36,089 nt of DNA from a virus. Made by a program: the position numbers and the translations under genes. Each line of letters starts with the position of its first letter. The first letter of the stretch is position 1. The notes below the pieces were generated by a model. The model saw nothing but the letters and a program-made list of their open reading frames with translations, ran no database searches and was not told the DNA's origin. The DNA lies in the IMG/VR virus record IMGVR_UViG_3300048587_001133, positions 1 to 36,089 of that record, one strand, 5' to 3'. Positions 4,943 to 34,276 of the stretch are shown in pieces.

Positions 4943-5310
4943 TCGCAGCCATTTCCCTTGAGGGTTCTGTAGAGACAAGTATGGAAGCACCCACAGAGAA
5001 CCAAGTCATGAACTCTACCTGGACCGTCTTCAAGTTCGACCCGGCCGTCGCCATGGGTGAGGTTGAGGCGACGCTGCGGCTGGCCACCGTGGCTGCTGAA
5101 GGGCTGCACGGGGAAGAGCGCATCCGTCAAGAAGTGCGCACTCGGATCGAACCGCGTCCCCGGGCCTGCATCATCGACACCACCGCGGACTCCGGTCGCA
5201 CCCTGGCCGCGATCTTCGGTGAGTACGTGCGGCGCGAGTTCGGCGATCAGGCGGTTGAGGTGTCCCAGTTCGTGACGGAGGTTTGTATTCAGAGGGAGGT
5301 TGCCGGATGA
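4939..5310 (+). CDS. Hypothetical early protein
   Basis: 123 residues if started at the ATG overlapping the sigma-like gene (ATGA at 4939); the in-frame ATGs at 4981 and 5008 are alternatives, and the recognisable fold-like part starts near 5008. Beta/alpha pattern without known motifs (WTVFKFDPAVAMGEVEATLRLA; ACIIDTTADSGRTLAAIFGEY). It sits between a sigma-like regulator and the primase-helicase, with 4-base overlaps at both ends, so a role in replication control is possible but unproven. Confidence 0.6.
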   Translation: MIAAISLEGSVETSMEAPTENQVMNSTWTVFKFDPAVAMGEVEATLRLATVAAEGLHGEERIRQEVRTRIEPRPRACIIDTTADSGRTLAAIFGEYVRREFGDQAVEVSQFVTEVCIQREVAG

Positions 5311-10164: not shown

Positions 10165-10677
10165 CTACTTGCCCGTGCTGGCGAAGAGCCCACGGTCGGT
10201 CTTGCGGAACCGGGCGTCGGCGCCCTTGGCTCCGGTCTCGCGCAGGATGGCGGCGTACAGCGTGGCGTGCGGGGTCTTGCCCTTGGGGCTGGACCACAGG
10301 CCCTTGGCGGTGACCGCGTCCACCATCTGCTTGGCGGTCATCGGCTCGGTGGACTCGGCCAGGACCTGCGCGGCGGCGTCGAGCAGGCTGAGCTTCCTGG
10401 GCTTGGCCGGGTCGCGCGGCTTGCGGGCCTTCTTCTCCACCGTCGTGGTGTTGGCCTCGGGCTTGCTGGGCTCGGCCTTTTCAGCCTGTGGCTTATTGCC
10501 AGCCTTGACTTCACCACGCAGGCGCTGGGCCGACTTGATCCGCACCTTCTTGTTGGTGGACATGTTCGTGGCTTCCCACCCGCCGTGGCGACTCTCGGCG
10601 TCGATGCGGACCGGCACGACTTTGTCGCTGACTTTGGCCAGGTAGGTCCCGCCGATGGTGATCTCGTTCTTTTTCAT
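10165..10677 (-). CDS. HARE-HTH domain protein
   Basis: 170 residues with AGGAG upstream of the start. The N-terminal 55 residues ([20 protein letters not shown] then [17 protein letters not shown]) form a small beta domain. A basic Lys/Pro-rich linker follows (about 60-95). The C-terminus (about 95-165) is a HARE-HTH winged helix: [58 protein letters not shown]. This domain is known from RNA polymerase delta, ASXL and restriction-linked proteins, and is thought to bind DNA. It ends a four-gene operon. The satellite carries a shorter relative at 31533-31823 that lacks the N-terminal domain. Confidence 0.85.
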
Positions 10678-10734
10678 GATGCAATCTCCTGTGGCCGAAT
10701 TTTGTTCCGGGGGGCTGGCCAGGCCTCTTGGGTC

Positions 10735-11016
10735 TCACTCGGTGAAGCGGTACAGCTCCTGGGCGTAGGCGTGGATGTCGCTGTTCGTCCCGCGGAAGCC
10801 CTCGGTGCGCTGGTGGAGGATTTCCGCCAGGTCGATGATGGTGGTGTCGTCGGCCCGGGCAGCGATCTCCCATGTCTTCCACGCGAGCTGGTCGCGTTTC
10901 GGATCTCGGATGATCGAGTCGATGCGGATGACGCTGCTGCGTTTGGCGTCTCGGCGGTCGCGCTCGATGGTGAGCGTGCCGGCCTGGCCTTCGATCTCGA
11001 TGCGCTTCGTCTGCAT
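10735..11016 (-). CDS. Conserved small protein, HARE-HTH partner
   Basis: 93 residues preceded by GGGAG. Beta-rich N-terminus (RIEIEGQAGTLTIERDRR), then RIDSIIRDPKRDQLAWKTWEIAARADD and a helical end (LAEILHQRTEGFRGTNSDIH, ELYRFTE). No known fold. A clear relative follows the same gene order in the satellite at 31872-32141, with shared TWEI, LAE-LHQRTEG, DIH and ELYRF positions, so the pair with the HARE-HTH gene is a conserved module. Function unknown. Confidence 0.8.
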   Translation of the reverse strand: MQTKRIEIEGQAGTLTIERDRRDAKRSSVIRIDSIIRDPKRDQLAWKTWEIAARADDTTIIDLAEILHQRTEGFRGTNSDIHAYAQELYRFTE

Positions 11017-15019: not shown

Positions 15020-16516
15020 ATGTTTCGTTGGCTCCGCAATCTCGCTGCACCGACTCAGCCGCAACGCGCTGCCGGCGCGGGGTTGCGCATCGTCCGCGCC
15101 GGTTCCACGCGCTCAATCAGGGCCCGCTACGACGCCGCTCAGACCAACAGCGACAACCGTCGTCACTGGGCCAACGCCGACGGCCTGTCCCCCAACGCCG
15201 CCATCAGCCCCGAAGTCCGGCGCGTGCTGCGGAATCGGGCCCGGTACGAGGTGGCGAACAACTCGTATGCCCGCGGCATCGTGCTCACCTTGGCGAACGA
15301 TGTGATCGGCACGGGCCCGCGGCTGCAGATGTTGACCCCCGACCCCACGGCGAACCGCACCATCGAACTGGCATTTGCCGAATGGGCCGACGCCGTGGGG
15401 CTTGCCTCCAAGCTCCGGACGATGCGCATGGCACGCGCCGACTCCGGTGAAGCGTTCGGCATTCTCACCAGCAACCCCGACGTGCGGGTACCCGTGCAAC
15501 TGGACCTGCGCCTGGTGGAGGCCGACCAGGTCGCCTCACCGCTGGTATTGACTCGCCAGGGCCAGCCGGTGGACGGCATTGTGTTCGACCGCTTCGGCAA
15601 TCCCATCGAGTACCACGTGCTGCGTCAGCACCCCGGTGACGGCGCCTCGCTGGCTCGATCGGCTGCCGACTTCGACCGCATCCCCGCCCCGGGAGTGCTG
15701 CACTATTTCCGGGGGGACCGACCGGGTCAGGCGCGGGGTATCCCCGACATCACGCCCGCTCTACCCCTGTTCGCGCAGCTGCGGCGCTACACCCTGGCGG
15801 TGATCGCCGCCGCCGAGACCGCCGCTGACTTCGCGGCCGTGCTCTACACCGACGCTCCGGCCAACGGCGAAGCTGATCCGGTCGAACCCATGGACCTGGT
15901 CGAACTCGAACACCGCATGGCCACCGTGCTGCCGGGCGGTTGGAAGTTGGGGCAGGTGACGGCCGAGCAGCCGGCGACCACGTACGGCGAGTTCAAGCGC
16001 GAGATCCTCAACGAGATCGCTCGCTGCCTGAACATGCCCTACAACATCGCCGCGGGCAATTCCTCGGGCTACAACTACGCCTCGGGTCGCCTCGATCACC
16101 AGACCTACTACAAGGCCATTCGCGTCGAGCAGCACCACCTGCAGACCACGGTGCTGGACCGCATCCTGCGCGCCTGGCTGGACGAGGCCACGCTGGTGGA
16201 AGGCCTGCTGCCGCAGTCGATGCGCACCCGTGACCCCGGCGCCCTGCACTTCGCCCACACCTGGTTCTGGGACGGCCACGAACATGTGGACCCCGCCAAG
16301 GAAGCGAACGCTCAGGCCACGCGCCTGTCGAACCACACCACCACCCTGGCCATCGAGTACGCCCGGCAAGGTCGTGACTGGGAAGAGCAACTGCGTCAGC
16401 GCGCCGCCGAGGTGGGGCTCATGCGTGAACTGGGCCTGACCCTCGCTGACGCGCAGCCCAATACCGATCCCAACCAGGAGGACACGGATGTCGAAGATCC
16501 GGCCCAAGCCGCCTGA
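15020..16516 (+). CDS. Portal protein, lambda family
   Basis: 498 residues. Typical lambda-type (Phage_portal_2) features: an N-terminal RYDAAQTNSDNRRHWANADG, RNRARYEVANNSYARGIVLTLANDVIGTGP, DSGEAFGIL, RLVEADQVASP, EYHVLR, VLHYFRGDRPGQARGIPDITPAL and LNMPYNIAAGNSSGYNYASGRLDHQ. It forms the ring at the capsid vertex through which DNA passes and to which the tail attaches. It overlaps the next gene by 29 bases. No portal is present in the inserted element. Confidence 0.93.
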   Translation: MFRWLRNLAAPTQPQRAAGAGLRIVRAGSTRSIRARYDAAQTNSDNRRHWANADGLSPNAAISPEVRRVLRNRARYEVANNSYARGIVLTLANDVIGTGPRLQMLTPDPTANRTIELAFAEWADAVGLASKLRTMRMARADSGEAFGILTSNPDVRVPVQLDLRLVEADQVASPLVLTRQGQPVDGIVFDRFGNPIEYHVLRQHPGDGASLARSAADFDRIPAPGVLHYFRGDRPGQARGIPDITPALPLFAQLRRYTLAVIAAAETAADFAAVLYTDAPANGEADPVEPMDLVELEHRMATVLPGGWKLGQVTAEQPATTYGEFKREILNEIARCLNMPYNIAAGNSSGYNYASGRLDHQTYYKAIRVEQHHLQTTVLDRILRAWLDEATLVEGLLPQSMRTRDPGALHFAHTWFWDGHEHVDPAKEANAQATRLSNHTTTLAIEYARQGRDWEEQLRQRAAEVGLMRELGLTLADAQPNTDPNQEDTDVEDPAQAA

Positions 16517-18518
16517 GGACGCCCAGCGTTCCCTGGCCCTGACCGCCCACGCCCAGATCGAGCTGGAGGCTGCCGGTGACGGATCTGATGCCGCGCCGCG
16601 CATCCCGCGCTTCCGCATGGTCGCCTACACGGGCGTGCCCATGCGCATTGCCGCCTGGCGGTACCCGGTGATCGTCGATCTGGCCGGCCTGCACATCCCG
16701 TCGCAGGCGCGGCCGATCCGATTCAGCCACGACCCCGGCGCCGGCATCGGGCACACCGACAGCATCCGCATCGAATCCGGCCAGCTCGTCGCCACCGGCC
16801 TGGTCTCACGCGACACGGCCATCGCCCGCGAGATCGTCGCCTCAGCCAAGAACGGTTTTCCCTGGCAGGCCTCCATCGGCAGCAGCGTGGAAGAGTTCGA
16901 GTTCGTCAAGGACGGGCAGAACGTGCTCGTCAATGGCCAGACCTTCCGGGGTCCGCTCAACGTGGTGCGCAAGGCCACGCTGGGCGAGATCAGCTTCGTG
17001 GACCTGGGCGCCGACGGCGCTACCACCGCCAGCATCGCCGCGCAACAGCGGCAGGAGTCTACTGACATGAGCGTTGCCTACGACAACAGCACCAACCCGA
17101 GTCAGGTCGCCGCCAGTGCGGAGGCCAGCGCCACGGCCACGGTGGAAGCCGCCCCCCCTGTGACGGCCACGGCGGACGATCCCGTCACCCAGATGCGTGC
17201 CCAGGCCGCCGCCGAGTCGGCGCGCATCGCCGCGGTGCGGAAGCTGTGTGCCAAGCACCCCGACGTGGAAGCCACGGCCATCGCGGAAGGCTGGGACGTC
17301 AACCGCACCGAATTGGAAGTACTGCGCGCTTCGCGTCCGGCGGTGCCGCACATGATCACCGGCGCCTCGATTGCCAGCGCGATGAGCGGGGGTGCCACCA
17401 GCCAGGTGCTGGAGGCGGCCTGCATGCTCACGGCCGGGCTGGGCAACCTGGACAAGCTGTTCGACGAGCAGACGCTGGACGCCGCGTCCAAGCGGTTCCG
17501 CGGCGGCATCGGGCTGCAGGAACTGCTGCTCGAAGCGGCCTGGGCCAACGGTTACAGCGGACGCAACTTCCGCGACAACCGCTCGGTGCTGCGCTTCGCC
17601 TTCGGCCATGACATTGCCGCTTCCGGGCAAAGCACCATCGACATCAGCGGCATCCTGTCCAACGTGGCCAACAAGTTCCTTCTGGAGGGCTTCTTCAGCG
17701 TCGAGCGCACCTGGCGCAACATCACCGCCGTCCGCAACGTGTCGGACTTCAAGACCGTGACCAGCTACCGGCTGATCGGCAAGGACCAGTACGAGAAGGT
17801 CCTGCCCGGCGGCGAACTCAAGCACGGCACCCTGGGCGAGCAGAGCTACAGCAACAAGGCCGACACCTACGGCCTGCTGCTGAGCATCGACCGCCGCGAC
17901 GTGATCAACGATGACCTGGGCGCCATCACCACCGTGCCCCGGAAGCTGGGGCGCGGCTCGGGCCTGAAGATCAACGACGTCTTCTGGGCCGAGTTCCTGG
18001 CCAACTCGAACTTCTTCAAGACCGCCAACAAGAACTACCTCGAGGGCGCCGACACCGCCCTGGGCATCGACGGGCTGACCAAGGCCGAGGTGGCGTTCCT
18101 GGACCAGGTCGATCCCGACGGCAAGCCCATCGGCGTCATGCCCGCCATCGTCCTGGTGCCCACGGCGCTCAGCGCCATCGGCACGCAGCTCTACAAGTCG
18201 CTGGAGCTGCGCGAGACCACGAGCAATGTGAAGTACCCCATTGCCAACCCGCACCAAGGCAAGTTCCGCGTCGAGGTCAGCCGCTACCTGGCCAACGCGC
18301 TCTACACCGGCAACTCGGCGAAGGCCTGGTACCTGCTGGCCGACCCCAACGACCTGCCTGTGATCGAGGTGGCATTCCTCAACGGGCAGGAGTCGCCCAC
18401 CATCGAAACCGCCGAGGCAGACGCCAATGTTCTGGGCATTTTTATGCGTGGATACCACGACTTTGGCGTCGCTTTGCAGGAACCACGCGGCGGCGTGAAG
18501 GCCAAGGGTGAGGCGTAA
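16488..18518 (+). CDS. Prohead protease fused to major capsid protein (helper)
   Basis: 676 residues. The N-terminal domain (about 1-185) fits a prohead serine protease: IRFSHDPGAGIGH (likely catalytic His) and WQASIGSSVEEFE (likely Ser), ending at ISFVDLGADGATTASIAA. An Ala/Thr-rich middle (about 195-245) may be scaffold. The C-terminus (about 290-676) is an HK97-fold-like major capsid protein with GGELKHG, LSIDRRDVINDDLG, NYLEGADTALGID, WYLLADPNDLPVIEVAFLNGQESPTIE and YHDFGVALQEPRGG. Self-cleavage after assembly is expected. A diverged relative is in the satellite at 26681-28579. Its start lies inside the portal gene, after AGGAGG-like sequence. Confidence 0.9.
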   Translation: MSKIRPKPPEDAQRSLALTAHAQIELEAAGDGSDAAPRIPRFRMVAYTGVPMRIAAWRYPVIVDLAGLHIPSQARPIRFSHDPGAGIGHTDSIRIESGQLVATGLVSRDTAIAREIVASAKNGFPWQASIGSSVEEFEFVKDGQNVLVNGQTFRGPLNVVRKATLGEISFVDLGADGATTASIAAQQRQESTDMSVAYDNSTNPSQVAASAEASATATVEAAPPVTATADDPVTQMRAQAAAESARIAAVRKLCAKHPDVEATAIAEGWDVNRTELEVLRASRPAVPHMITGASIASAMSGGATSQVLEAACMLTAGLGNLDKLFDEQTLDAASKRFRGGIGLQELLLEAAWANGYSGRNFRDNRSVLRFAFGHDIAASGQSTIDISGILSNVANKFLLEGFFSVERTWRNITAVRNVSDFKTVTSYRLIGKDQYEKVLPGGELKHGTLGEQSYSNKADTYGLLLSIDRRDVINDDLGAITTVPRKLGRGSGLKINDVFWAEFLANSNFFKTANKNYLEGADTALGIDGLTKAEVAFLDQVDPDGKPIGVMPAIVLVPTALSAIGTQLYKSLELRETTSNVKYPIANPHQGKFRVEVSRYLANALYTGNSAKAWYLLADPNDLPVIEVAFLNGQESPTIETAEADANVLGIFMRGYHDFGVALQEPRGGVKAKGEA

Positions 18519-22616: not shown

Positions 22617-22898
22617 ATGGGCATCAAGCTCGGTTCAGAATGCAAGCTCTACCACGGTCCGGCGGGCACTACCGCCGACACCGTGATGGGCAACGTCAGG
22701 GACCTGACGCTCAACCTGGAGAAAGGTGAGGCGGATGTCACCACCCGCGCCAACCAGGGCTGGCGCGCCATCGTCGCCACGCTCAAGAGCGGCACGGTCG
22801 AGTTCGAGATGGTCTGGGATACGGATGACACGGGTTTGACCCGTCAGAAGGTCGTCCCGTTCGTCTGGCGGCGTGGAGCGGTGGTCGTCTACACCTAA
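22617..22898 (+). pseudogene. Tail tube protein, N-terminal half (interrupted by the inserted element)
   Basis: Codons 1-70 (22617-22826) are a phage tail tube start: MGIKLGSECKLYHGPAG, VRDLTLNLEKGEADVTTRAN, GWRAIVATLKSGTVEFEMVW, DTD. From 22827 on, the 23 codons to the stop (from DTGLTRQKV to VVVYT) belong to the inserted element and have no tail-like features. The missing C-terminal half lies at 34058-34276. Joined, they give 142 residues without a frame change. As it stands the product is 93 residues and should not form a tube. Ribosome site GGAAGGAG-like at about 22600. Confidence 0.9.
22812..22844. other. attL, left junction of the inserted element
   Basis: Tail tube coding sequence reads to GATACGGAT, then the presumed crossover dinucleotide GA (22827-22828), then the element arm CACGGGTTTGACCCGT (22829-22844). 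The arm is a near mirror (14 of 16 positions) of the arm at the right junction, as serine integrases require for the two halves of attP. Confidence 0.8.
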
Positions 22899-23920
22899 TC
22901 TCGCTTCACGCCGGTCGACAACTTCGCTGGCGTGTTCCGAATGCGAACAGGGCGAAATGGCGATGTATCCGGCGAACCGACGAGGTCGATGTCGGGTACG
23001 GGGCAAGACTTCTCAAATCGGAATTGCGAACCGGCGACGTATTGCTCATCAAGTTCCATCGCTAGCCAACGTCGCTGCGTATGTTCGCATGCCCACCCAG
23101 TCACATTGCTACCGGCAAAGATGTCCACAACAAGGTCGCCCGGATCAGTAAGCATGGAAATGAAAAATAATGGCAGGTCAAATGGAAAGCGAGCTGGATG
23201 AACGGGCACGGCCATTTCGCGACAGCGCCGTTGGTAGTAGTCATTTGAACTGGTGTGCGAGATCACGAGCAGGTTGGATGGAATGGCACCACCCCGATCG
23301 CGGCTAAACTTGGTGGAGATGTCGTGCCCGCTGGGGCGCTTTTTGGCCTTGTATCCGTTCTTGAGAAGACTGCGCATTGCAGCGCTGTACTCAACGCTTG
23401 TACGGTCGTTGCTGGCTTTTGGAAACGGAGTCTTCGAAAGCCACCATACTGTATTGATGGCGTCTTTCACGCGGATTTTCCGAACAGTAACCCACTCCGC
23501 GGGCGTTGGTAGTTTACTAGGGCTGTACCAGAAAAAATCCTGTGCCAGATGAAGTCGACCCGGACGCGTTAGTTCGATCAAGAGTTGGTAATGGTACGTC
23601 GAACGAACGGGCACGCCGGGCAACCAACTCCCCCCAATGTCGATTACAAAGCTCCCGGTAGGCTTGAGAACGCGCTGCACCTCATCGGCAAACCGCGTGA
23701 ACCAGGTGACATATTCGGACGCCGCCTCGTTCCCATAATCCTTTTTTCGCACCAGCGCGAACGGCGGCGAGGTGAAGACCAAGTCAACGGACCCATCTGG
23801 CATCGCCCGCAAATATTCCAGGCTGTCGCCGAGGAACATCGCGCCCAACTCGGTGCGGTAGGCTGGTGGCTTGGGAAACCCGCTCCATACTGCTTTCGTC
23901 ACCTGCGCCATTTCAGTCAT
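22895..23920 (-). CDS. Site-specific DNA methyltransferase (probably cytosine-N4), R-M system
   Basis: 341 residues. Motif IV TSPPF (about 50-54) comes first and the SAM-binding DIFAGSNVTGWACE (near 265) last, the beta-class order; TSPPF as in M.PvuII suggests N4-cytosine. Further motifs: GSFVIDIGGSWLPG, DFFWYSPSKLPTPAEW, DAINTVWWLSKTPFPKAS. It should protect the element and host DNA from the partner nuclease. Its start overlaps the nuclease gene by 8 bases. It converges on the truncated tail tube with a 4-base overlap of the two ends. The pair is clearly more AT-rich than the flanks, which suggests recent gain. Confidence 0.9.
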   Translation of the reverse strand: MTEMAQVTKAVWSGFPKPPAYRTELGAMFLGDSLEYLRAMPDGSVDLVFTSPPFALVRKKDYGNEAASEYVTWFTRFADEVQRVLKPTGSFVIDIGGSWLPGVPVRSTYHYQLLIELTRPGRLHLAQDFFWYSPSKLPTPAEWVTVRKIRVKDAINTVWWLSKTPFPKASNDRTSVEYSAAMRSLLKNGYKAKKRPSGHDISTKFSRDRGGAIPSNLLVISHTSSNDYYQRRCREMAVPVHPARFPFDLPLFFISMLTDPGDLVVDIFAGSNVTGWACEHTQRRWLAMELDEQYVAGSQFRFEKSCPVPDIDLVGSPDTSPFRPVRIRNTPAKLSTGVKRD

Positions 23921-25313
23921 CCAATTGCATGCGTTTTACGGTCATCGCGTTTTCAGCCTGATGGTTAAGAATCTCTACCAGCTTGGCCGGGTCAGTGGCA
24001 ATGGCATGCAAATCCTTGCCGGACAATAGGATAACGTATATCGCGGTGTTTTCCATCACCTTCTTGGCGAAGCCGCGGACGGCGTTTCCAACCTCGCCCG
24101 TCGAAATCAGCAGGATGACATTCGACCGCATCGTTGTGGCGACGCCCACTTCCTTCGCCAAATCCTCCGTGGAGACCTTTGTCGTGTTCTTGCATTGGAT
24201 CTGCCACCGGCGGAACAAGAGGCGGGTGCCCTCCACGATCATGTCGACCTCGGCACCACCGGTCGCATTACTGCGCAGCCGCCATTGCACGAAGGAAAGA
24301 TCGAGCCGCCTGCAGAAGTAGAACGCCAGAGCTTCAAGTGCGATGCCCTTTGTGTTCTTACTGTTGGAGCCCAAATCCTGGACGATTTGCGCAAGCGACA
24401 TGCGGGAGAGTCGCTTGTACCCTTGGCCCATGGTGTTTGCCAGCTGCTTGAGGATGGGCTCAAAGAACTCGCCCCGCAGCTTCTCTGTCGCACGTACCAA
24501 ATGTGCCTTGGCCCCGCGCCCACCAGTAGTTTTCTGCCACGTCAGGAGGCCAACTTCCTCAAGGCGATGCAAAACCGATTGGGGTAGACCACCTTCGGGA
24601 AACTCGGTGCCATAGAGCGCGATGGCGCTGTCGCGCACGTCGCTACTGGTGGCTTCGTCGCATCCCATAAGGGCAAACGCTCTCGCAAAGTCGTACTGCG
24701 CTTGGGTCAGGTCGCTCCACTGCTCAATGTCCCGGGCCGTAACGCCAAGGAGCACTTCTATACGGGCATCATCCGGCGTCCACAGTTCGGCACCGGCCGT
24801 CGCGCCCGTTCCATTCAGCACGCCAGCAAACGCCAGCCATTGGCGAAGTATGTTCAGGTGCTTCCCGTTATTCGGAACGTGCATCCCTTCTTCACGCAAA
24901 CGTTTTGCGATGTTCTCCTTCTTCAAAAGGATGCCCGCCTGCATCAGGTCGTGGATGCACGACACGAGTTTAAGCCCGTCGAGGCGGGCCAAGCAGTGCC
25001 GCCCCATGCGCTCTTTGAGTTCCGATGTCGATTCTCGTTGGTCGTAAAGCTCCTGGCCGAACTCAGTCAACGCCACGCTGGTTTTGTCGATCTTGTTCAA
25101 TAGCCCGTAGGCGATCATGGCCAGAATGGTGTTGTCGCCCAGCGTCTTCTTCGGGTCCGCATTCTTGCCTTTGCCAGCAAAGAACCTCGCGTCGATCGCC
25201 TGCTGCAATGCGTAGCGATCTGGTTGGTGGTTGTGGACCAGTTCGAGGAGTACCGGTAGGTCAATCACCGCTGGCGAGAATTCCGAGCCAAAGACAATGT
25301 CGCTCTTGGCCAT
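23913..25313 (-). CDS. Type II-like restriction endonuclease, PD-(D/E)XK
   Basis: 466 residues, AGGTGA upstream of the start. The N-terminal two thirds contain several winged-helix-like segments (VALTEFGQELYDQ, VLHRLEEVGLLTWQ), probably for DNA recognition. The nuclease core is near 350-375: GGAEVDMIVEGTRLLF then WQIQCKN, matching the D-X(n)-(E/Q)XK pattern with Gln before Cys-Lys as in Mrr-like enzymes. It is upstream of and coupled to the methyltransferase, so the two form one restriction-modification operon. The recognition site cannot be read from the sequence. Confidence 0.8.
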   Translation of the reverse strand: MAKSDIVFGSEFSPAVIDLPVLLELVHNHQPDRYALQQAIDARFFAGKGKNADPKKTLGDNTILAMIAYGLLNKIDKTSVALTEFGQELYDQRESTSELKERMGRHCLARLDGLKLVSCIHDLMQAGILLKKENIAKRLREEGMHVPNNGKHLNILRQWLAFAGVLNGTGATAGAELWTPDDARIEVLLGVTARDIEQWSDLTQAQYDFARAFALMGCDEATSSDVRDSAIALYGTEFPEGGLPQSVLHRLEEVGLLTWQKTTGGRGAKAHLVRATEKLRGEFFEPILKQLANTMGQGYKRLSRMSLAQIVQDLGSNSKNTKGIALEALAFYFCRRLDLSFVQWRLRSNATGGAEVDMIVEGTRLLFRRWQIQCKNTTKVSTEDLAKEVGVATTMRSNVILLISTGEVGNAVRGFAKKVMENTAIYVILLSGKDLHAIATDPAKLVEILNHQAENAMTVKRMQLDD

Positions 25314-26105: not shown

Positions 26106-26684
26106 ATGGAGGACCTCACCCCGCGCGAGATCGAGTTGACCCCTGATCTGCTGGAGTACGCCAAGGCGGTGGCCTTGAAGGAGGCACCCAAGCACTGCGG
26201 GCCACGGGTCGATTACGACGACGTGATCCAGGAAGCGCATCTGGCCCTGCTGCGCAAGCCGCCGAAGTTTGACCCGTCACGCGGCGCGAACGTCAAGACG
26301 CTCATCTACACGATCGTGCAGCGAGCGGTCATCAAGTACGCCACCCGCGAAACCCATGCCCATCAGCGCTTCCGAGAGTTTCCCGACGCGTTGATGGCGT
26401 CGAAGGACGATGACGACGAGGACTCGCCGCTGCAACAGATGTCGGGCAGGCGGCAGGCGGAACTCACTCGCAGCCGCTGGAACCTGGACGACGTGCTGCA
26501 GTACATCGACAACGAAGCGAGCCGGGAAATGTGCCGGTTGGTGATCGAGTGCAAGGGGAACATCAGCGAGGCCGCGCGTCGGATGAAGTTGAGCGAGGGC
26601 GCGGTGCGGCACCGGTTGAAGTTGCTGGCACCCAAGCTGATCGCAGCCGGTTTCGACCCCTTCGAGCAAGGAGGCAAGACATGA
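26106..26684 (+). CDS. Sigma-70-like factor of the satellite
   Basis: 192 residues with GGAGG upstream. Region 2-like part (about 15-85): LEYAKAVALKEAPKHCG, VDYDDVIQEAHLALLRKPP, FDPSRGANVKTLIYTIVQRA, VIKYATRE. Acidic linker (SKDDDDEDSP). Region 4-like HTH (about 130-180): VLQYIDNEASREMCRLVIEC, ISEAARRMKLSEGAVRHRLK. This is more sigma-like than the helper protein at 4424-4942. It precedes and overlaps the capsid gene, so it may switch on satellite late genes. This is an inference. Confidence 0.75.
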   Translation: MEDLTPREIELTPDLLEYAKAVALKEAPKHCGPRVDYDDVIQEAHLALLRKPPKFDPSRGANVKTLIYTIVQRAVIKYATRETHAHQRFREFPDALMASKDDDDEDSPLQQMSGRRQAELTRSRWNLDDVLQYIDNEASREMCRLVIECKGNISEAARRMKLSEGAVRHRLKLLAPKLIAAGFDPFEQGGKT

Positions 26685-28579
26685 CCACAGCCCTCGACAA
26701 CATGCTGCTGACCGCGTCCGAGGTGGCGATCGAGGCCGGGGCCGGGGCCTCGGCCTCGGGCGATCGGCCCCGCATCAGCATCGTGGCCTACACCGGCGGC
26801 CTGATGAACGTGCCGGGCTGGGGCGCGGTGGCCATCAACCTGGCGGGCCTGGACGCCTCGGGCCAGGTGCCGCTGCTGGCCGACCATGACGCCCGCGTCA
26901 GCGGGGTCGTGGGCCACGGCCAGGCCAAGGTGATCGACGGCCGCCTGATTGTGGCCGGCGTCATGAGTGGTGCCGGCGACGCGGCGCGGCACATCGTGGA
27001 GATGACCGCGGGAGGGTTCTCGTTCCAGGCTTCGGTCGGCGTCGAGCCGGTCGAGCACGAGCAGGTGCAGTCTGGTGCCAAGGTCGAGGTCAACGGCCGC
27101 ATGCTGTCATCGCCGCGCGGCTTCGCGCTGGTGAAGGCGGGTCGGCTTCGGGAAGTGAGCATCACGCCGCTGGGTGCCGACGCCGGGACGAGCGTCGCCA
27201 TCGCGGCTTCACATCGCAACAGGGAGAGAGGCAACATGAGTACGGACGTTGTGAACATCGACGAGCAAACCATCCGGGCCGACGAGCGGCAGCGGATCAA
27301 CCAGATCGAGGGGCTGTGCAAGGCCCCGGCCCCGGGCTGGGGTTCGCTGCAGGGCCGGGTGGATGAACTGAAGGCCTCGGCTGTGGCGGGCGACCTGACC
27401 ATGCAGGACCTGTCGGCCGAGCTGCTGACCCTGCTGCGTGACTCGCGCCCCAAGGTCGGCACCTTCCACTCGGCGCAGCCGGTGGGCGGGGTGGCGACCA
27501 TCGAGGCGGCCCTGCTCAAGCGCCTGGGTCTGACGGCCCTGGGTGAGAAGATGCTGGGCCCCCTGGCGATGGAACACGGCGAGCGCATCCGCGCGACGCA
27601 TGCCGTGGACATCTGCCGGGCCGCGCTGATGCTCGACGGCGTGGATATCCCGCAGGGTCGTGAGCAGCTGGTCAAGGCGGCGCTCAGCACCACGTCGCTG
27701 CCGACTGCCTTGGGCAACCTGGCCAACAAGCTGCTGCTGGACGCCTACGACGAAGCGCCCGCTACCTGGCGTGCGTTCTGCTCGGTGCGGTCGGTGGCCG
27801 ACTTCAAGCCCAACACCGCGATCCGCCCGTCGTTCACCGGCCAGCTCGAGCCGGTGGCCCCGGGCGGCGAACTGAAGCACGGCCAGGTCGGCGAGTGGTT
27901 CGCGCAGTTCCGGGTGGACACCTTCGGCAAGGTGCTGTCGATCGACCGCCGCGACATCATCAACGACGACCTGGGCGTGTTCGACCAGAGCGCCCGGGCC
28001 TTCGGTCGCACGGCCATGCGGAAGATCAGCGACCTGGTGTACGAGGTGCTGCTGACCAACGAGGGCGGGTTCTTCGACGAGGCCAACAGCAACTACATCG
28101 AGGGTGCCGACTCGGCGCTGAACTTCGACTCCCTGGCCAAGGCCATCGAGGCGATGATGCTGCAGCGTGACGATGAGGGCAATGACCTGGACCTGCGCCC
28201 GGTCACGCTGCTGGTGCCCCCGGAGTTGCAGCCCACGGCCAAGGCGCTGCTGGAGTCGGAGTTCATCCAGCAGATCAACGAGCGGATGCCCACGGGCAAC
28301 TCGCTGCGTCGGGCGGTGAGCGTTGAGGTCGAGCCTCGGCTGAGCAACACCGTCAAGTTCAAGTCGAAGGCCAGCACCAAGCACTGGTACCTTTTCGCCA
28401 GTCCCAGCGACTCGCCGATGGTGGTGGCATTCCTCAACGGTCGGCAGCAGCCGACGGTGGAGTTCTTCGGCCTGGACCAGGACGTGAACAAGCTGGCGGT
28501 GAGCTGGCGCGTGTACCACGACTTCGGCGCGGCCCTGGTCGATCCCCGCGCTGCGGTCCATTCCAAGGGCCAGGCGTAA
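26681..28579 (+). CDS. Second prohead protease-major capsid fusion (satellite)
   Basis: 632 residues, GGAGG site, ATGA overlap with the sigma-like gene. Protease domain (about 25-180): ISIVAYTGG, PLLADHDARVSGVVGHG (likely His) and FSFQASVGVEPVEHEQ (likely Ser), then VSITPLGADAGTSVAIAA. The capsid part (about 340-632) shares GGELKHG, LSIDRRDIINDDLG, NYIEGADSALNFD, HWYLFASPSDSPMVVAFLNG and YHDFGAALVDPRAAVHSKG with the helper protein at 16488-18518 but is otherwise clearly diverged. It probably builds the satellite's own capsid. It lacks the Ala/Thr-rich linker of the helper version. Confidence 0.9.
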   Translation: MTTALDNMLLTASEVAIEAGAGASASGDRPRISIVAYTGGLMNVPGWGAVAINLAGLDASGQVPLLADHDARVSGVVGHGQAKVIDGRLIVAGVMSGAGDAARHIVEMTAGGFSFQASVGVEPVEHEQVQSGAKVEVNGRMLSSPRGFALVKAGRLREVSITPLGADAGTSVAIAASHRNRERGNMSTDVVNIDEQTIRADERQRINQIEGLCKAPAPGWGSLQGRVDELKASAVAGDLTMQDLSAELLTLLRDSRPKVGTFHSAQPVGGVATIEAALLKRLGLTALGEKMLGPLAMEHGERIRATHAVDICRAALMLDGVDIPQGREQLVKAALSTTSLPTALGNLANKLLLDAYDEAPATWRAFCSVRSVADFKPNTAIRPSFTGQLEPVAPGGELKHGQVGEWFAQFRVDTFGKVLSIDRRDIINDDLGVFDQSARAFGRTAMRKISDLVYEVLLTNEGGFFDEANSNYIEGADSALNFDSLAKAIEAMMLQRDDEGNDLDLRPVTLLVPPELQPTAKALLESEFIQQINERMPTGNSLRRAVSVEVEPRLSNTVKFKSKASTKHWYLFASPSDSPMVVAFLNGRQQPTVEFFGLDQDVNKLAVSWRVYHDFGAALVDPRAAVHSKGQA

Positions 28580-28924: not shown

Positions 28925-30718
28925 ATGGTGGCGATGAGCACGGCGGCGGCAGGGTCCGCCATCTTCGATTCGATCGAAGATGCGGGTCTGCTGCGCGAGT
29001 ACGACGACGGTGCCGACTGGCGAGCCGAGTCGCTGGCCAAGGAGCGTGCGTTCCGCCAGGGGTTTGTGGAGGAGGCCCGGCGCGTGGTGCGGGTGTGGGC
29101 GCACCCACCGGGGCCGCCACCGCCGCCTGACACCAAGCCGGTGTCGCTGCGCGAGCTGATGGCTAAGCGGCGTTTCGATCCGGACGTCGAGATCGAAGCG
29201 GCACTGAAGCTGCGCCGGCGCGTGCGTGAGCGTTACACGGTCTATGGTCGCGGCGATGCCGGGCGCAAGACCCATGTCCTGGGGTATCGCCAGGGTCACG
29301 ATGTCGCTGCCGCCCGGGTTCGTGGTCGCCATCACGCCCTGGTCTACGTGATGGAGCCGTGGTTCAACCTCGAAACCTCGGACGTGGACATTTTCGACCC
29401 GAGGTTGCTGTGCCCCTGGCTGCGTGCTGTGGAGGCCTGGGCCAGCAGGCCGATCCGACGGGGCAAGGTGATCCTGCCGCCGCCGCGCCCGCTGGAGGTG
29501 GTGCCGATGGAAGCGCTGGATGACGATTTCCTACTTCGCACGGCGAGAAGTGAGCCACCACTGGAAACGATTACCAGTGAGCCGCCGTCACTGGTGAATT
29601 GCACCAGTGAGCCCGCGTCGTCACTGAAAACCGTTATCAGTGAGCCGCCCTCACTTATGCAAAGCATGAGTGAGCCCGCGCCCTCACTTGGGAAAGTCCC
29701 AAGTGAGCCGCCTCCACGGCTGCGCCTGACCCGGGCCGACCAGATCGAGATGCGGCCGCCGCACTGGCTGCTCCGCGGCATGCTCGAGCGCGACACCCTC
29801 GCCCTGATCTTCGGCGATCCCGGCTGCGGCAAGTCGTTCCTGGCGATCGACTGGGCGTGCAGGGTGGCCACAGGGACGCCCTGGCGCGGGCAGGCGGTCA
29901 AGGCCGCACCCGTGGTCTACGTCGCGGGGGAAGGCCAACAGGGGTTCGGCAGGCGTATCCGGGCGTGGACCGAGCACCACGGCGTCAGCCTGGCGAACGT
30001 CCCGCTCTACCTGGCTCCGGCGGTGGCCATCCCGCTGCCCACCGACCTGGTGGCCCTGATCGTCGCCATCGACACCGGCGTCGCCAACGTGGGGCAGCCC
30101 GGACTGATCGTGCTCGACACCCTGGCCCGCTGTTTCGGCGGCGGCGATGAGAACAGCACCCAGGACATGAGCAAGTTCGTCATCGCCTGCGACGTGATCC
30201 GTCGGCGCTATGGCTGCACCATCCTGGTCGTGCATCACGCCGGGCATGGCGACAAGACCCGGGCCAGGGGCGCGATCGCACTCAAGGCGGCGCTCGACGC
30301 CGAGTACCGCCTGGCCAACGACGCGGGCATGCTTCTGACCGCCACGAAGATGAAGGACGCCGAGACGCCGCCGCCGCTGGCCCTGCAGTTGGTCACGGTG
30401 GACCTGCCCGGCCTGATGGACGACTACGGCAATCCGGTCACGTCGGCCGCGATCGAGGTGGTGGACGCTGACACCAGCGCCATCGAGGCGCAGGTCAAGT
30501 CGCTGCGCCCGCGCGGCAGGTGGCAGGAGGTAGGCCTGGCCATCGCCCGCAGCCTGATCAGTCGTGGTGACGATGGGCAGGTGGCAGTCGAGGCATGGCG
30601 CGAGGCGTGCCAGCGCGCGGGCATGGTCCGGCAGAACCAGCACCGTGTGCTCGACGCCCTGACCACCCATGGCGACCTCATCGTCACAGATGGGCAAATG
30701 AGCCTGCCAACACCCTGA
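28925..30718 (+). CDS. RepA-type AAA replication helicase of the satellite
   Basis: 597 residues. The C-terminal half (about 270-520) is an AAA_25/RepA-like hexameric helicase: IEMRPPHWLLRGMLERDTLA, Walker A FGDPGCGKSFLAID near 297, VVYVAGEGQQGFGRRIRAW, Walker B GLIVLDTLARC, and VVHHAGHGDKTRARGAIALK. The N-terminal 200 residues are unknown. Residues about 207-261 are an odd SEPPSL-repeat linker whose DNA forms five hairpins. The last 70 residues look like a winged helix. It should drive replication of the excised element, with the iteron-like DNA at 30720-30937 as the likely origin. It is unrelated to the helper primase-helicase. Confidence 0.88.
   Translation: MVAMSTAAAGSAIFDSIEDAGLLREYDDGADWRAESLAKERAFRQGFVEEARRVVRVWAHPPGPPPPPDTKPVSLRELMAKRRFDPDVEIEAALKLRRRVRERYTVYGRGDAGRKTHVLGYRQGHDVAAARVRGRHHALVYVMEPWFNLETSDVDIFDPRLLCPWLRAVEAWASRPIRRGKVILPPPRPLEVVPMEALDDDFLLRTARSEPPLETITSEPPSLVNCTSEPASSLKTVISEPPSLMQSMSEPAPSLGKVPSEPPPRLRLTRADQIEMRPPHWLLRGMLERDTLALIFGDPGCGKSFLAIDWACRVATGTPWRGQAVKAAPVVYVAGEGQQGFGRRIRAWTEHHGVSLANVPLYLAPAVAIPLPTDLVALIVAIDTGVANVGQPGLIVLDTLARCFGGGDENSTQDMSKFVIACDVIRRRYGCTILVVHHAGHGDKTRARGAIALKAALDAEYRLANDAGMLLTATKMKDAETPPPLALQLVTVDLPGLMDDYGNPVTSAAIEVVDADTSAIEAQVKSLRPRGRWQEVGLAIARSLISRGDDGQVAVEAWREACQRAGMVRQNQHRVLDALTTHGDLIVTDGQMSLPTP
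29559..29707. repeat. Five-hairpin array inside the helicase gene
   Basis: Five hairpins follow each other at about 30-bp steps: 29559-29579, 29588-29610, 29621-29643, 29650-29674 and 29683-29707. All share the outer CACT/AGTG stem (four of them TCACT/AGTGA), separated by GCC/GCG-rich spacers, while the inner stem bases differ but always pair (for example TCACTGGTG/CACCAGTGA versus CTCACTTGGGA/TCCCAAGTGAG). The pairing is conserved while the sequence is not, so the DNA or RNA structure is selected. In protein it encodes a repeated SEPPSL linker. Confidence 0.8.
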
Positions 30719-30719
30719 G

Positions 30720-30937
30720 CGTCACGTGCGTCACGTTCACGTTCGCCCCTATAGGGGGGCGAAACGTGACGTGACGGTGACCAGGAATCAGATGTGACGA
30801 ACGTGACGATGAAACGTGACGCATCAAGATGATGAACAGCAAGCACTTACGAAGATGGTCACATCAAGAACGTGACGCCGACGTGACAACGTGACGGAAC
30901 GAAACGTGACGAGCGTCACGTTTGGGCAAACGTGACG
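30720..30937. repeat. Iteron-like array, probable satellite origin
   Basis: The 350-bp gap 30719-31068 has no gene. It contains seven exact AACGTGACG copies (30763, 30800, 30813, 30869, 30888, 30903, 30929) and two in reverse (30729, 30914), plus further GTGAC cores. Near its left end a GC-rich dyad, TTCGCCCC-TATA-GGGG, lies among them (about 30742-30765). An array of one 9-mer directly behind a RepA-type helicase is the classic layout of an iteron origin. The last part (30940-31068) is AT-richer with no clear structure. Confidence 0.75.
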
Positions 30938-31292: not shown

Positions 31293-31323
31293 TTGTATCA
31301 CTTCGCGGCGCTGGCCGCGTTTA

Positions 31324-31396
31324 ATTCGTGGCGGGACTCGAACCCGCATCTGTGCCTTCGTAAGAGGCGCGCTCTCTCCATTGAGCTACACGCATG
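31324..31396 (-). tRNA. tRNA-Val (UAC)
   Basis: The minus strand folds as a tRNA. Acceptor ATGCGTG pairs with CACGAAT (one mismatch at 3-70), D arm GCTC/GAGC, anticodon loop CTTACGA giving anticodon UAC, T arm GCGGG-TTCGAGT-CCCGC. There is a mismatch at 27-43, the discriminator base is T and CCA is not encoded. Read as Val by its anticodon, serving GUA codons, which are rare in this GC-rich DNA. The defects make it slightly unusual and charging is not assured. Confidence 0.85.
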
Positions 31397-31532: not shown

Positions 31533-31823
31533 TCATGCGGCGGTGAATTGGCCCCGCGCCACCTTCTTGAACCGGGCGTCGCCGCCCTTGGCCGCGATCT
31601 CCCTGATCATCGCGGCGTAGATCGTGGCGTGCGGTGTAGCGCCGCCGCTCTTCCACAGGCCCTTGGCCAGCGCGGCGTCCACGATCTGTTTGGCGTTCAT
31701 CGGTTCCTTGGAGTCGGTGAGCACCTTGGCGGCGGCGTCCAGGCCCGACATCGGCTTGGCGGCCTTCGTCTTGGGCTGCGGCTTGCTGGTCTTGGCGCTC
31801 TTGGTGGTGTTCTTCTTCGACAT
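31533..31823 (-). CDS. HARE-HTH domain protein, satellite copy
   Basis: 96 residues with AGGAGA upstream. A basic Lys/Ser-rich N-terminus ([20 protein letters not shown]) and a HARE-HTH winged helix ([55 protein letters not shown]). It matches the C-terminal domain of the protein at 10165-10677 closely but lacks that protein's first 60 residues. It is the second gene of a minus-strand pair. A DNA-binding role is inferred. Confidence 0.85.
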
Positions 31824-31871
31824 GACATGGTCTCCTTTGGCCGGTTTCGGGCGGGCCAGGCCCTGGTGGTG

Positions 31872-32141
31872 TCACTCCGCGAAGCGGTACAGCTCGCGGG
31901 CGTAGTCGTGGATGTCGTTGTCGGTTCCGGGCCTGCCCTCGGTGCGTTGGTGCAGCGTCTCGGCCAGGTCGATCAGCTTCGTGTCGTCGATGCGGGCGTC
32001 GATCTCCCACGTTTGCCAGGCCTGCTGACCGGGCTGCGGGTCGCGCAGCATCGAGTCGATGCGGATGGTCGCGCAGCCGGGCGTGCGTTCAATGGTGAGG
32101 CTGCCGGCGTCGCCTCGTAGTTCGATCCGTGTGGTTCGCAT
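31872..32141 (-). CDS. Conserved small protein, satellite copy
   Basis: 89 residues from the ATG at 32141 (AAGGAG upstream), though the frame is open to 32231. Relative of the protein at 10735-11016: RIELRGDAGSLTIERTPG, RIDSMLRDPQPGQQAWQTWE, DLAETLHQRTEGRPGTDNDI, ELYRFAE. It heads the HARE-HTH pair and is divergent from the recombinase, with 161 bp between them that must hold the promoters. Confidence 0.8.
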   Translation of the reverse strand: MRTTRIELRGDAGSLTIERTPGCATIRIDSMLRDPQPGQQAWQTWEIDARIDDTKLIDLAETLHQRTEGRPGTDNDIHDYARELYRFAE

Positions 32142-32302
32142 GGCGATGCTCCTTTCGTGGGACACATGGAGCCTCGTTTCGCAGCCGGAATCAAGGGAAT
32201 TCTGAGTTCCCCACAATCGCGCCGCAGCCACATGCCTTGATGTTCGGCGCGACCTGAGCGAAGGGTGGTGCGCGGCCCGCGCGGGTCGCCAAGGAGATGC
32301 AC

Positions 32303-34276
32303 ATGGCCAAGCGCAACCAGGGCACCATCATCGAAGCGGTGGGCTACGCCCGCCGCAGCACCGACATGCAGGAGCGCTCGGTGCCCGACCAGAAGGCCTA
32401 CGTCGAGAAGTGGGCCAAGGAGAATGGCTACCGCGTCAAGCGCTGGTACGTCGATGACGCCATCAGCGGCACCAGCGCGAGGGGCCGCGACGCCTTCGAG
32501 CAGATGATCGTCGAGGCCGAGGCCGGTTCGGATTTCCGCACCGTGCTCTGTTACGACATCAGCCGGTTCAGTCGCGGCGGCACCAACGAGACCGGCTACT
32601 ACCTGCACCGGCTCAAGCTCGTCGGCGTCGATGTCATCTTTCCCGCCGAAGGCATTCCCGATGGCGACGAAGGTGAACTGCTGCAGGGCGTGAAGTCATG
32701 GCAGGCCCGCCAGTACAGCGTGAAGCTGGCCCGCGACAGCATTCGCGGCAAGCTCTCGAACATGACCCAGCGCAAGAGCCGCCTCGGCAGCCAGGCACCG
32801 TTTGGGTACGACCGCCAGTTCGTCACCGCCGACGGGAAGGTGCTGCGCGTCCTGCGTGAGATGCCCGATGGCAGTCGCCAGGAGATCGCGCCCGACGGGA
32901 CGCTGCTGCGCGTGCTGCCCAAGGGCGAGCGCCTGCCCAAGGCCAAGTCGGACATGGTGCGATTGATCCCCAGCCTGCCCGAGCGCGTCCGCACCGTGAA
33001 GCAGATGTTTGAGTGGTGCGCCGGCGGCAGCGGCATCCGCACCATCGCCATGCGGCTCAACGCCGCTGGTGTCCGCACGCCCATGGGACGACTGTGGGAG
33101 CACACGTCGGTCGCCAGCATCCTGCGGAACCCCGTCTATAAAGGATCGCTGGTCTGGAACCGCATGACCAAGGCCAAGATCAACGGCCTGCTGCCGGACG
33201 GTACGCTGCGCCCGCCGCCGCGCAATCCCAACGGCGAACGCAACGGCAAGGACCAGTGGCTCGTGATGGATGGCATCCACGAGGCCCTGATCAGCGCCGA
33301 CCTGTGGCAGCGCACCCAGGACGCCATTGACCGGCGATCCAAGATGGGCGGCTTGGCCAGGCCGGTGAATCGCTACCTGCTCAGCGGCCTGGTGAAATGC
33401 ACCAGCTGCGGATTCAACCACGTCGGCCGAATGGGCGGCACCGGCGGCGCGATCCGCTACTACTACGACGGCGGGTACATGCGGTATGGTCGCCAGGTCT
33501 GCTCGCCTACCAGCATCAACGCCGCCGACCTGGACAGATTCGTCATCGAGCAGGTGCGCAATGTCATCGGCGGCGACCGGCCTGCGGTGGAGCGCGCTGT
33601 CGATCGCTTCATCAAGCAGATGAAGGCGCACGCCAAGCCCGACGACCGCCGCAGCCAGATCGAAGCCGACCTCAAGACGGTGCAGAAGCGAATCGAGAGC
33701 GTGGTGGCCCTGCTCACCGATGGCGACCTGGACGGCCTGGCGGAATTGAAGGCGACACTGATCACGCTGCGCAAGCGGCGCGCCGCGATGGAAGCGGAGA
33801 TGGCGACCGTTGGTGGCGACGCACCAGCGCCGACGAATGTGGGCGACCTGCGGACCTGGGCGCTGCGCCGCCTGGCCGAGATCGACAGCATGCTGACCAA
33901 CGGCACCGGCGGTGAGCCGCTTCGCCAGTTGGTCGCCGCCTACGTCGCCCGCATCGAGATCGACCCGCGCGAGCGTCGCGGCAAATTGGTGCTGGCCGCG
34001 GACGCGATGGCGGTGCTCGAACACGACATCGCTTCTATCTCACGGGTAAAGCCCGTGGACACCGGCTTCACGGCCCTGAAGAACGCGTACTTCAACAACA
34101 CCGCCATCGCCCTGGCCATCCTCGACGGTGAGAACGGCGAGGGTTTGGACGCTGACTTCAGCGTGACCAACTTCAGCCGCAGCGAGCCGCTGGAGGAAGC
34201 GGTGACCGTCAGCGTGACGGTGAAGCCGACGTACTCGACCCGCGCCCCGGCCTGGATTGAAGGAGGTACGCCCTGA
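32303..34276 (+). CDS. Large serine recombinase of the satellite, fused to the tail tube C-terminus
   Basis: 657 residues from ATG 32303, six bases after AAGGAG; ATG 32297 is too close to that site. Resolvase domain with catalytic serine in YARRS (Ser19) and LCYDISRFSRGG, then a Recombinase domain with GIRTIAMRLNAAGVRTPMGR and LRNPVYKGSLVWNR. A zinc ribbon (KCTSCG) and a coiled coil (about 455-500) follow. Residues 1-585 are the enzyme. Residues 586-657 are the last 72 residues of the phage tail tube, read in frame across attR. After excision the enzyme would instead end with the 23 residues encoded at 22827-22895, giving 608 residues. The fused tail may change its activity. Confidence 0.92.
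   Translation: MAKRNQGTIIEAVGYARRSTDMQERSVPDQKAYVEKWAKENGYRVKRWYVDDAISGTSARGRDAFEQMIVEAEAGSDFRTVLCYDISRFSRGGTNETGYYLHRLKLVGVDVIFPAEGIPDGDEGELLQGVKSWQARQYSVKLARDSIRGKLSNMTQRKSRLGSQAPFGYDRQFVTADGKVLRVLREMPDGSRQEIAPDGTLLRVLPKGERLPKAKSDMVRLIPSLPERVRTVKQMFEWCAGGSGIRTIAMRLNAAGVRTPMGRLWEHTSVASILRNPVYKGSLVWNRMTKAKINGLLPDGTLRPPPRNPNGERNGKDQWLVMDGIHEALISADLWQRTQDAIDRRSKMGGLARPVNRYLLSGLVKCTSCGFNHVGRMGGTGGAIRYYYDGGYMRYGRQVCSPTSINAADLDRFVIEQVRNVIGGDRPAVERAVDRFIKQMKAHAKPDDRRSQIEADLKTVQKRIESVVALLTDGDLDGLAELKATLITLRKRRAAMEAEMATVGGDAPAPTNVGDLRTWALRRLAEIDSMLTNGTGGEPLRQLVAAYVARIEIDPRERRGKLVLAADAMAVLEHDIASISRVKPVDTGFTALKNAYFNNTAIALAILDGENGEGLDADFSVTNFSRSEPLEEAVTVSVTVKPTYSTRAPAWIEGGTP
34042..34075. other. attR, right junction of the inserted element
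   Basis: Element arm ACGGGTAAAGCCCGTG (34042-34057), then the shared GA (34058-34059), then tail tube sequence CACCGGCTTCACGGCC. Left tail tube + GA + right tail tube reads in frame as ...VWDTDDTGFTALKN..., while left arm + GA + right arm forms the symmetric attP. Confidence 0.8.
34058..34276 (+). pseudogene. Tail tube protein, C-terminal half
   Basis: 72 codons and the stop: DTGFTALKNAYFNNTAIALA, ILDGENGEGLDADFSVTNFS, RSEPLEEAVTVSVTVKPTYS, the typical end of a siphophage tail tube of this type. It has no start of its own and is translated only as the tail of the recombinase. It continues codon 70 of the gene at 22617 exactly. Its stop overlaps the tail assembly chaperone start, as expected for the intact phage operon. 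Confidence 0.9.

Follow-up and report, generated by a model that had tools for sequence, protein, structure and literature searches.

Tandem dyads within a replication gene are known from phage lambda, whose ori lies in the linker-coding region of gene O. Palindromic coding repeats are also found among the Rickettsia palindromic elements, which are about 100–150 nt long. In Cluster O mycobacteriophage, 17-bp palindromes occur in 34 dispersed copies with invariant arms, some of them within coding regions (PMC4351075). For ParB-family proteins, specificity is set by few DNA-contact residues (PMC7383237). In pRN1, the replication protein contains a helicase and carries a winged helix at its C-terminus, and the origin lies downstream of the gene that encodes it; P4 alpha is discussed alongside as its analogue (PMC4234260). 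How does a viral helicase gene with a row of palindromes in its own linker compare with these systems?

The window, that is, the whole stretch of DNA analysed here, is a 36,089-base linear IMG/VR virus record. It contains an AAA_25 / RepA-like helicase gene (Table 1), whose product is laid out as an N-terminal domain, a variable linker, a RecA-type core and a C-terminal winged helix. An 11.7-kb locus was fetched, and a second contig carries a copy of it that is identical throughout. The AlphaFold prediction for the entire helicase was poor (pLDDT 51) and usable for the C-terminus only, where it places a helix-turn-helix (HTH) and strands at a pLDDT of about 77–89.

Table 1. Features of the helicase gene and its surroundings, with positions in the window.
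Feature	Position	Strand	Basis or relation
AAA_25 / RepA-like helicase gene	28925..30718	+	597 aa; Pfam AAA_25 E 7e-45; RepA 1g8y profile match E 2.8e-7
YATCT-class palindrome CATCTTCGATTCGATCGAAGATG, 10-bp arms, perfect, CATCT ends	28960..28982		in frame close to helicase start
U0, degenerate sixth dyad ACTTC/GAAGT with GAGCC flank	29531..29556		ACT...AGTGAGCC ends as in U1–U5
U1 CCACTGGAAACGATTACCAGTGA	29558..29580		core matches ParB-like linker palindromes L315/L316, p 0.0035
U2 TCACTGGTGAATTGCACCAGTGA, 9-bp arms	29588..29610		without close ParB-like linker palindrome match, p 0.38
U3 TCACTGAAAACCGTTATCAGTGA	29621..29643		core resembles L367/L302, p 0.013
U4 TCACTTATGCAAAGCATGAGTGA	29651..29673		22/23 nt identical to linker palindrome of ParB-like gene L344, p 0.0025
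U5 TCACTTGGGAAAGTCCCAAGTGA	29684..29706		pairing reaches 29683–29707; core resembles L380, p 0.0025
C-terminal winged-helix segment of helicase, probable iteron reader	30518..30715	+	predicted secondary structure; covaries with downstream iteron motif
Iteron array, at least 11 CGTGACG, both orientations	30719..30937		inverted repeat 30729–30776; probable replication origin

The record holds several further features. An NrS-1-like primase-polymerase with D5/DUF5906 helicase domains is encoded at 5283–7697, and at 22895–25313 a DNA methylase adjoins an Mrr-type restriction endonuclease, likely as a restriction-modification pair. A tRNA-Val gene on the minus strand (31323–31395), downstream of the helicase, possibly marks an integration boundary. 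This one record has two capsid genes (16488–18518 and 26531–28579), two large serine recombinases (492–2036 and 32297–34276) and a small-gene pair that is repeated (10165–11016 and 31533–32231), a doubling that perhaps reflects two related elements side by side.

An earlier note on this DNA had described five tandem hairpins inside the helicase gene, and we indeed find five dyads at 29558–29706, in the part that codes for the linker. The outer CACT/AGTG pairing it reported is present in all five, extended to TCACT/AGTGA in four; the first unit ends in CCACT/AGTGA, which leaves its outermost pair unpaired, and the stem of U4 contains one T.G pair. The 23-nt units are separated by spacers of 7–10 nt, so that the dyads follow each other at 30/33/30/33 nt. 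When the degenerate U0 is also counted, AGTGAGCC occurs six times in register, and the ACT...AGTGAGCC ends are invariant across all six units. U1U2 and U3U4 represent a 63-nt dimer that has been duplicated, and none of the 14 differences between the two copies falls on any of the 25 outer and flank positions (P = 2.6e-4). Across the whole 36 kb, this array is the only cluster of at least four hairpins within 170 nt.

The inner stems change together with pairing kept, again in agreement with the earlier description: the covariation score among the six units is 0.541 vs 0.166 after shuffling, and none of 500 shuffles scored as high. Folding of the array is strong as well (z of −8.85 as DNA and −8.2 as RNA, matched by 0 of 200 shuffles). 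AGT and TCA encode serine throughout the array, yet in the larger genes of the window they make up 8% and 6% of the codons for this residue. Since the ends are unchanged, the inner differences symmetric and the serine codons unusual, the constraint on the array acts on DNA: the ends are fixed, and the middle is free yet symmetric. The earlier note had gone further and read the covariation as selection for a fold rather than for the encoded SEPPSL peptide. The part concerning DNA-level constraint stands, given relatives that have neither peptide nor hairpins and the use of all three frames by related palindromes (see below), whereas folding itself does not follow, because a symmetric protein site yields an equal covariation signal.

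To which extent is the array of this Planctomycetota phage shared with other helicases? The closest relatives of the gene are located in Planctomycetota genomes and keep the N-terminal domain and the linker flanks, without SEPPSL and without hairpins. A scan of about 100 helicase relatives revealed no second linker with a comparable hairpin cluster, so that conservation of the hairpins among relatives of the gene, as expected of functional hairpins, is not seen in this set. Nor did any of these relatives have the SEPPSL peptide without hairpins, the case that had been named beforehand as speaking against selection for the fold. The shared N-terminal domain in relatives devoid of hairpins and peptide identifies the array as a lineage-specific insertion at the DNA level, in which peptide and palindromes arrived together. 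Blastn searches of the array against annotated phages returned chance matches only. A dispersed host repeat was considered and rejected, as 294 Planctomycetota genomes contain neither a tandem TCACT..AGTGAGCC array nor TCACTGNNAACGTTNNCAGTGA. Linker repeats as a general helicase trait were likewise dismissed: other repeats were seen only in two more distant helicases, where hairpin tandem repeats of unrelated sequence lie in the N-terminal/linker region (L046:3524-3758 and L048:5482-5670).

The linker of this helicase family is hypervariable and the array is present in one lineage only, which would also suit a neutral, functionless tandem repeat that the linker tolerates and whose arms are kept complementary by templated quasipalindrome correction. 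Template-switch mutagenesis can produce arm symmetry, and such a mutation bias could be at work here. What this scenario leaves unexplained are the constant TCACT/AGTGAGCC ends next to changed inner stems and the core matches to linker sites of ParB-like genes described below, and we consider it quite improbable.

Directly 3' of the helicase gene an iteron array begins, and a downstream array of similar layout is found in most helicase relatives with differing motifs (TTGGAAT, TTGGACA, AGTGGAC, GTACCGA, CATCCGA and others). Among 28 distinct relatives, the iteron motif follows the winged helix at the C-terminus (partial r 0.43, p 0.0005), and its correlation with the helicase core is about 0 once the C-terminus is given. 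The pair L131 and L128, from the same genome bin, illustrates this: their cores are 93% identical, their C-termini 27%, and their motifs differ, with L131 having the C-terminus type and iteron motif of the window. Winged helix and origin appear to have been exchanged here as one cassette. It is thus probable that the C-terminal winged helix reads the iterons, and the replication origin probably lies at 30719–30937, not at the hairpin array. Iteron arrays 3' of AAA_25 helicase genes, as in the window and in L045–L145, look like a general origin marker for this group of phages, and their covariation with the winged helix provides a means to find origins in many uncultured phages. The hairpin array as iterons of its own replicon was also tried and rejected; it has only GTGA in common with CGTGACG, and the relatives are without it.

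These observations bear on two ways to connect the array with replication. Dyads repeated in tandem where a replication gene codes for its linker recall lambda ori, and the array might be an origin within the initiator gene, read as iterons by the N-terminal domain of the helicase. In such intragenic origins the iterons would be expected to be conserved in homologous initiators; the helicase linkers of L124–L131 showed no repeats, nor are there any at this place in relatives that share the N-terminal domain, and it is at the 3' end that iterons and a winged helix to match them lie. We regard a lambda-O-type origin as very improbable. The second possibility is a folded single strand of DNA or RNA, be it a single-strand origin, hairpins that serve priming or packaging, or a structure in the mRNA. 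Strong folding and covarying stems are what such a function would produce, and the earlier note had proposed a single-strand origin, a packaging or a primase site. This proposal is not supported, as the array is missing from the closest relatives and most relatives have iterons downstream. Together with the ambiguity of the covariation signal and the covariation of site and protein in the palindrome family described next, this makes a folded strand decidedly unlikely, and a folded origin is not favoured.

A different perspective opened with a scan for TCACT..AGTGAGCC pairs, which led to L014, where two perfect tandem TCACT-class palindromes have the same form as the window units. The AGTGAGCC flank holds for the window and L014, and was dropped as a family-wide trait. 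About half of the TCACTGNNAACGTTNNCAGTGA palindromes in viral contigs lie inside one ParB-like gene, directly after the HTH. Since a search with TCACTGNNAACGTTNNCAGTGA is biased, ParB-like genes were gathered anew by protein only, which gave 73 genes. Inverted-repeat arms of at least 8 bp, our definition of a palindrome, occur in the linker of 60% of them; control segments reach this length in 2.4% of cases and shuffles in 0.5%. In L330–L409 a perfect palindrome stands between the HTH and wing codons of phage ParB-like genes (linker at about 2410–2450); that of L344 is TCACTTATGCAAAGCATAAGTGA. PHROGs labels the family, phrog_1033, as ParB-like partition protein, and at least 593 stretches of DNA encode a relative. 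The predicted structure (pLDDT 90) comprises a ParB domain, an HTH and a beta-hairpin bearing KHG, and matches the structures of ParB-parS, Noc-NBS and KorB. The libraries and open-access literature searched hold no earlier description of this palindrome family.

The palindromes can be sorted by their outer bases, and these classes go along with the peptide that follows the palindrome, the wing class: TCACT with KHG (32), ATACT with KTG (7) and YATCT, i.e. TATCT or CATCT, with NGTxY (10), with few exceptions. The association is also present in the unbiased set alone. With N-domain identity controlled, outer bases correlate with the wing (partial r 0.84) and inner bases with the recognition helix (partial r 0.38, p 0.0005), while the cross-terms are about nil (outer-helix −0.01, inner-wing 0.01). 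Inner GGCAACGTTGCC, for example, is paired with SHTFV or SHTYV helices across several wing classes. Because the wing codons lie next to the palindrome, co-inheritance could account for some of the association with the outer bases. That outer and inner bases each follow a segment of their own in the DNA-binding domain suggests dyad binding sites instead of hairpins, and the linker palindrome appears to be the ParB-like protein's own binding site, carried in its own gene.

ParB-like genes are present in Planctomycetota genomes as well, and a few, such as L413 and L414, have one or two palindromes in the linker; in L414, two stand in tandem, GGTTCGGATTTCCGAACC / GGTTCGGAAATCCGAACC, at about 1950–2110. 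In the sampled alphaproteobacterial genomes ParB-like genes were too rare for use. In an AT-rich viral contig (L217:16-236), five TCACTTTTT...AAAAAGTGA hairpins follow each other in tandem, for the most part at a spacing of 30 nt.

The palindromes of this family use all three codon phases and encode unrelated peptides, and related ones are also found in protease, portal, tape-measure and collagen-like phage genes (names that are partly read from sequence); TCACTGGTGA palindromes related to U2 are likewise present in other phage genes. This spread over unrelated genes of other phages, the lineage-specific insertion into a variable linker and the visible duplication of the 63-nt dimer would fit a selfish or mobile palindromic coding repeat that spread in frame, was tandem-expanded here and has no function for the phage. 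Such a repeat would not be expected to have outer and inner bases that follow two separate protein segments in the ParB-like genes, the family is usually single-copy per virus contig, and the 14 dimer differences spare the outer bases. We hence see a selfish repeat as possible, if unlikely.

Do the array units belong to the family? U2–U5 have the TCACT outer class and the palindrome at 28960 has CATCT, with U1 being a CCACT variant. The cores of four of the five units (U1, U3, U4 and U5) match linker palindromes (sum p < 5e-5), with a summed core-match score that was never reached in 20,000 draws. The window units also agree with the subtype SL.....SE in their 23-nt length and codon phase. What differs is the location, in a helicase gene instead of between HTH and wing codons. 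The 36-kb window shows no ParB-like gene of the phrog_1033 family, and the record may be incomplete. In sequence terms, the array units are members of the ParB-like linker palindrome family.

Sites of the outer classes TCACT, ATACT and YATCT were also counted in 0.99 Mb of helicase relatives, which gave two vs five in the window. Both are in L129, beside the helicase: YATCT-class palindromes at 5953 and 8310, on either side of the helicase/iteron region. The one at L129:5953 is within the helicase gene, at a distance from the start codon that nearly equals that of the palindrome at 28960 in the window. The two sites indicate that class sites recur near this helicase; the tandem array does not.

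On balance, and with moderate confidence, we favour the reading that the array consists of in-frame dyad binding sites of the ParB-like type near the origin, with differing inner half-sites. The wing of the ParB-like protein would read the outer five bases, TCACT corresponding to the KHG wing, and the HTH would read the inner half. ParB-like dimers would bind the units as duplex dyads, and because a dimer requires symmetric arms, the inner stems would covary. The TCACT-class array occupies an unconstrained helicase linker, roughly 1 kb 5' of the probable iteron origin, and is accompanied by one YATCT-class site close to the start of the gene. Its most likely role, though less sure, would be to load the ParB-like protein next to the origin and so serve partition or the control of replication, and the cognate protein would be encoded outside the fragment or by another element. 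The unmatched core of U2 speaks against binding sites of this type, as do the missing phrog_1033 gene in the 36-kb window and the fact that most related phages are without such an array.

The inner halves differ among the five units, so that one protein with a strict HTH would not bind all of them equally, and the self-sites that four of the units resemble come from different ParB-like lineages. The array may then combine cognate sites of several ParB-like proteins and act, in the helicase gene next to the origin, as a decoy or as a docking place for several specificities, which we judge rather unlikely. Such an array could titrate or sense the ParB-like proteins of co-resident phages or plasmids, or borrow them, which is just as doubtful. 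For the favoured reading as binding sites, the row of hairpins is an entry point to a phage protein-DNA recognition system. Its two-part code, with outer bases set by the wing and inner bases by the HTH, seems readable from sequence and makes the prediction of specificity and the finding of phage/plasmid partners testable.

How then does the locus relate to described systems? At its 3' end it resembles pRN1, as the window helicase also has a C-terminal winged helix and a candidate origin 3' of its gene, and the iteron motif at 30719–30937 tracks the winged helix above the core. It differs from pRN1 and P4 alpha in its RecA-type AAA_25 helicase, its short inverted iterons and the switching of the motif with the winged helix. 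Unlike lambda ori, the array is not conserved in relatives, its inner halves differ and a separate iteron array is present. PARCELs (PMC2996958) and the Rickettsia palindromic elements are likewise tandem or in-frame palindromic coding repeats. With 23-nt units and 7–10-nt spacers the array belongs to neither, and in contrast to PARCELs it is without a 25-residue amphipathic repeat, its peptide varies and its bases track a DNA-binding protein. The Cluster O palindromes share with the array that they are found in a phage and partly in coding sequence, but they are dispersed and not tandem. The closest likeness is to ParB-parS, Noc-NBS and KorB-OB, which have dyad sites and a ParB-fold reader with HTH, binding being predicted in our case. 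Unlike parS, NBS and OB, the family palindrome is 22–23 bp long, has another sequence, lies in frame in its own or a helicase gene and shows an extra outer-base code that follows the beta-hairpin wing. From these comparisons we infer that the array represents ParB-parS-like sites in an unusual location, with a readable two-part code.
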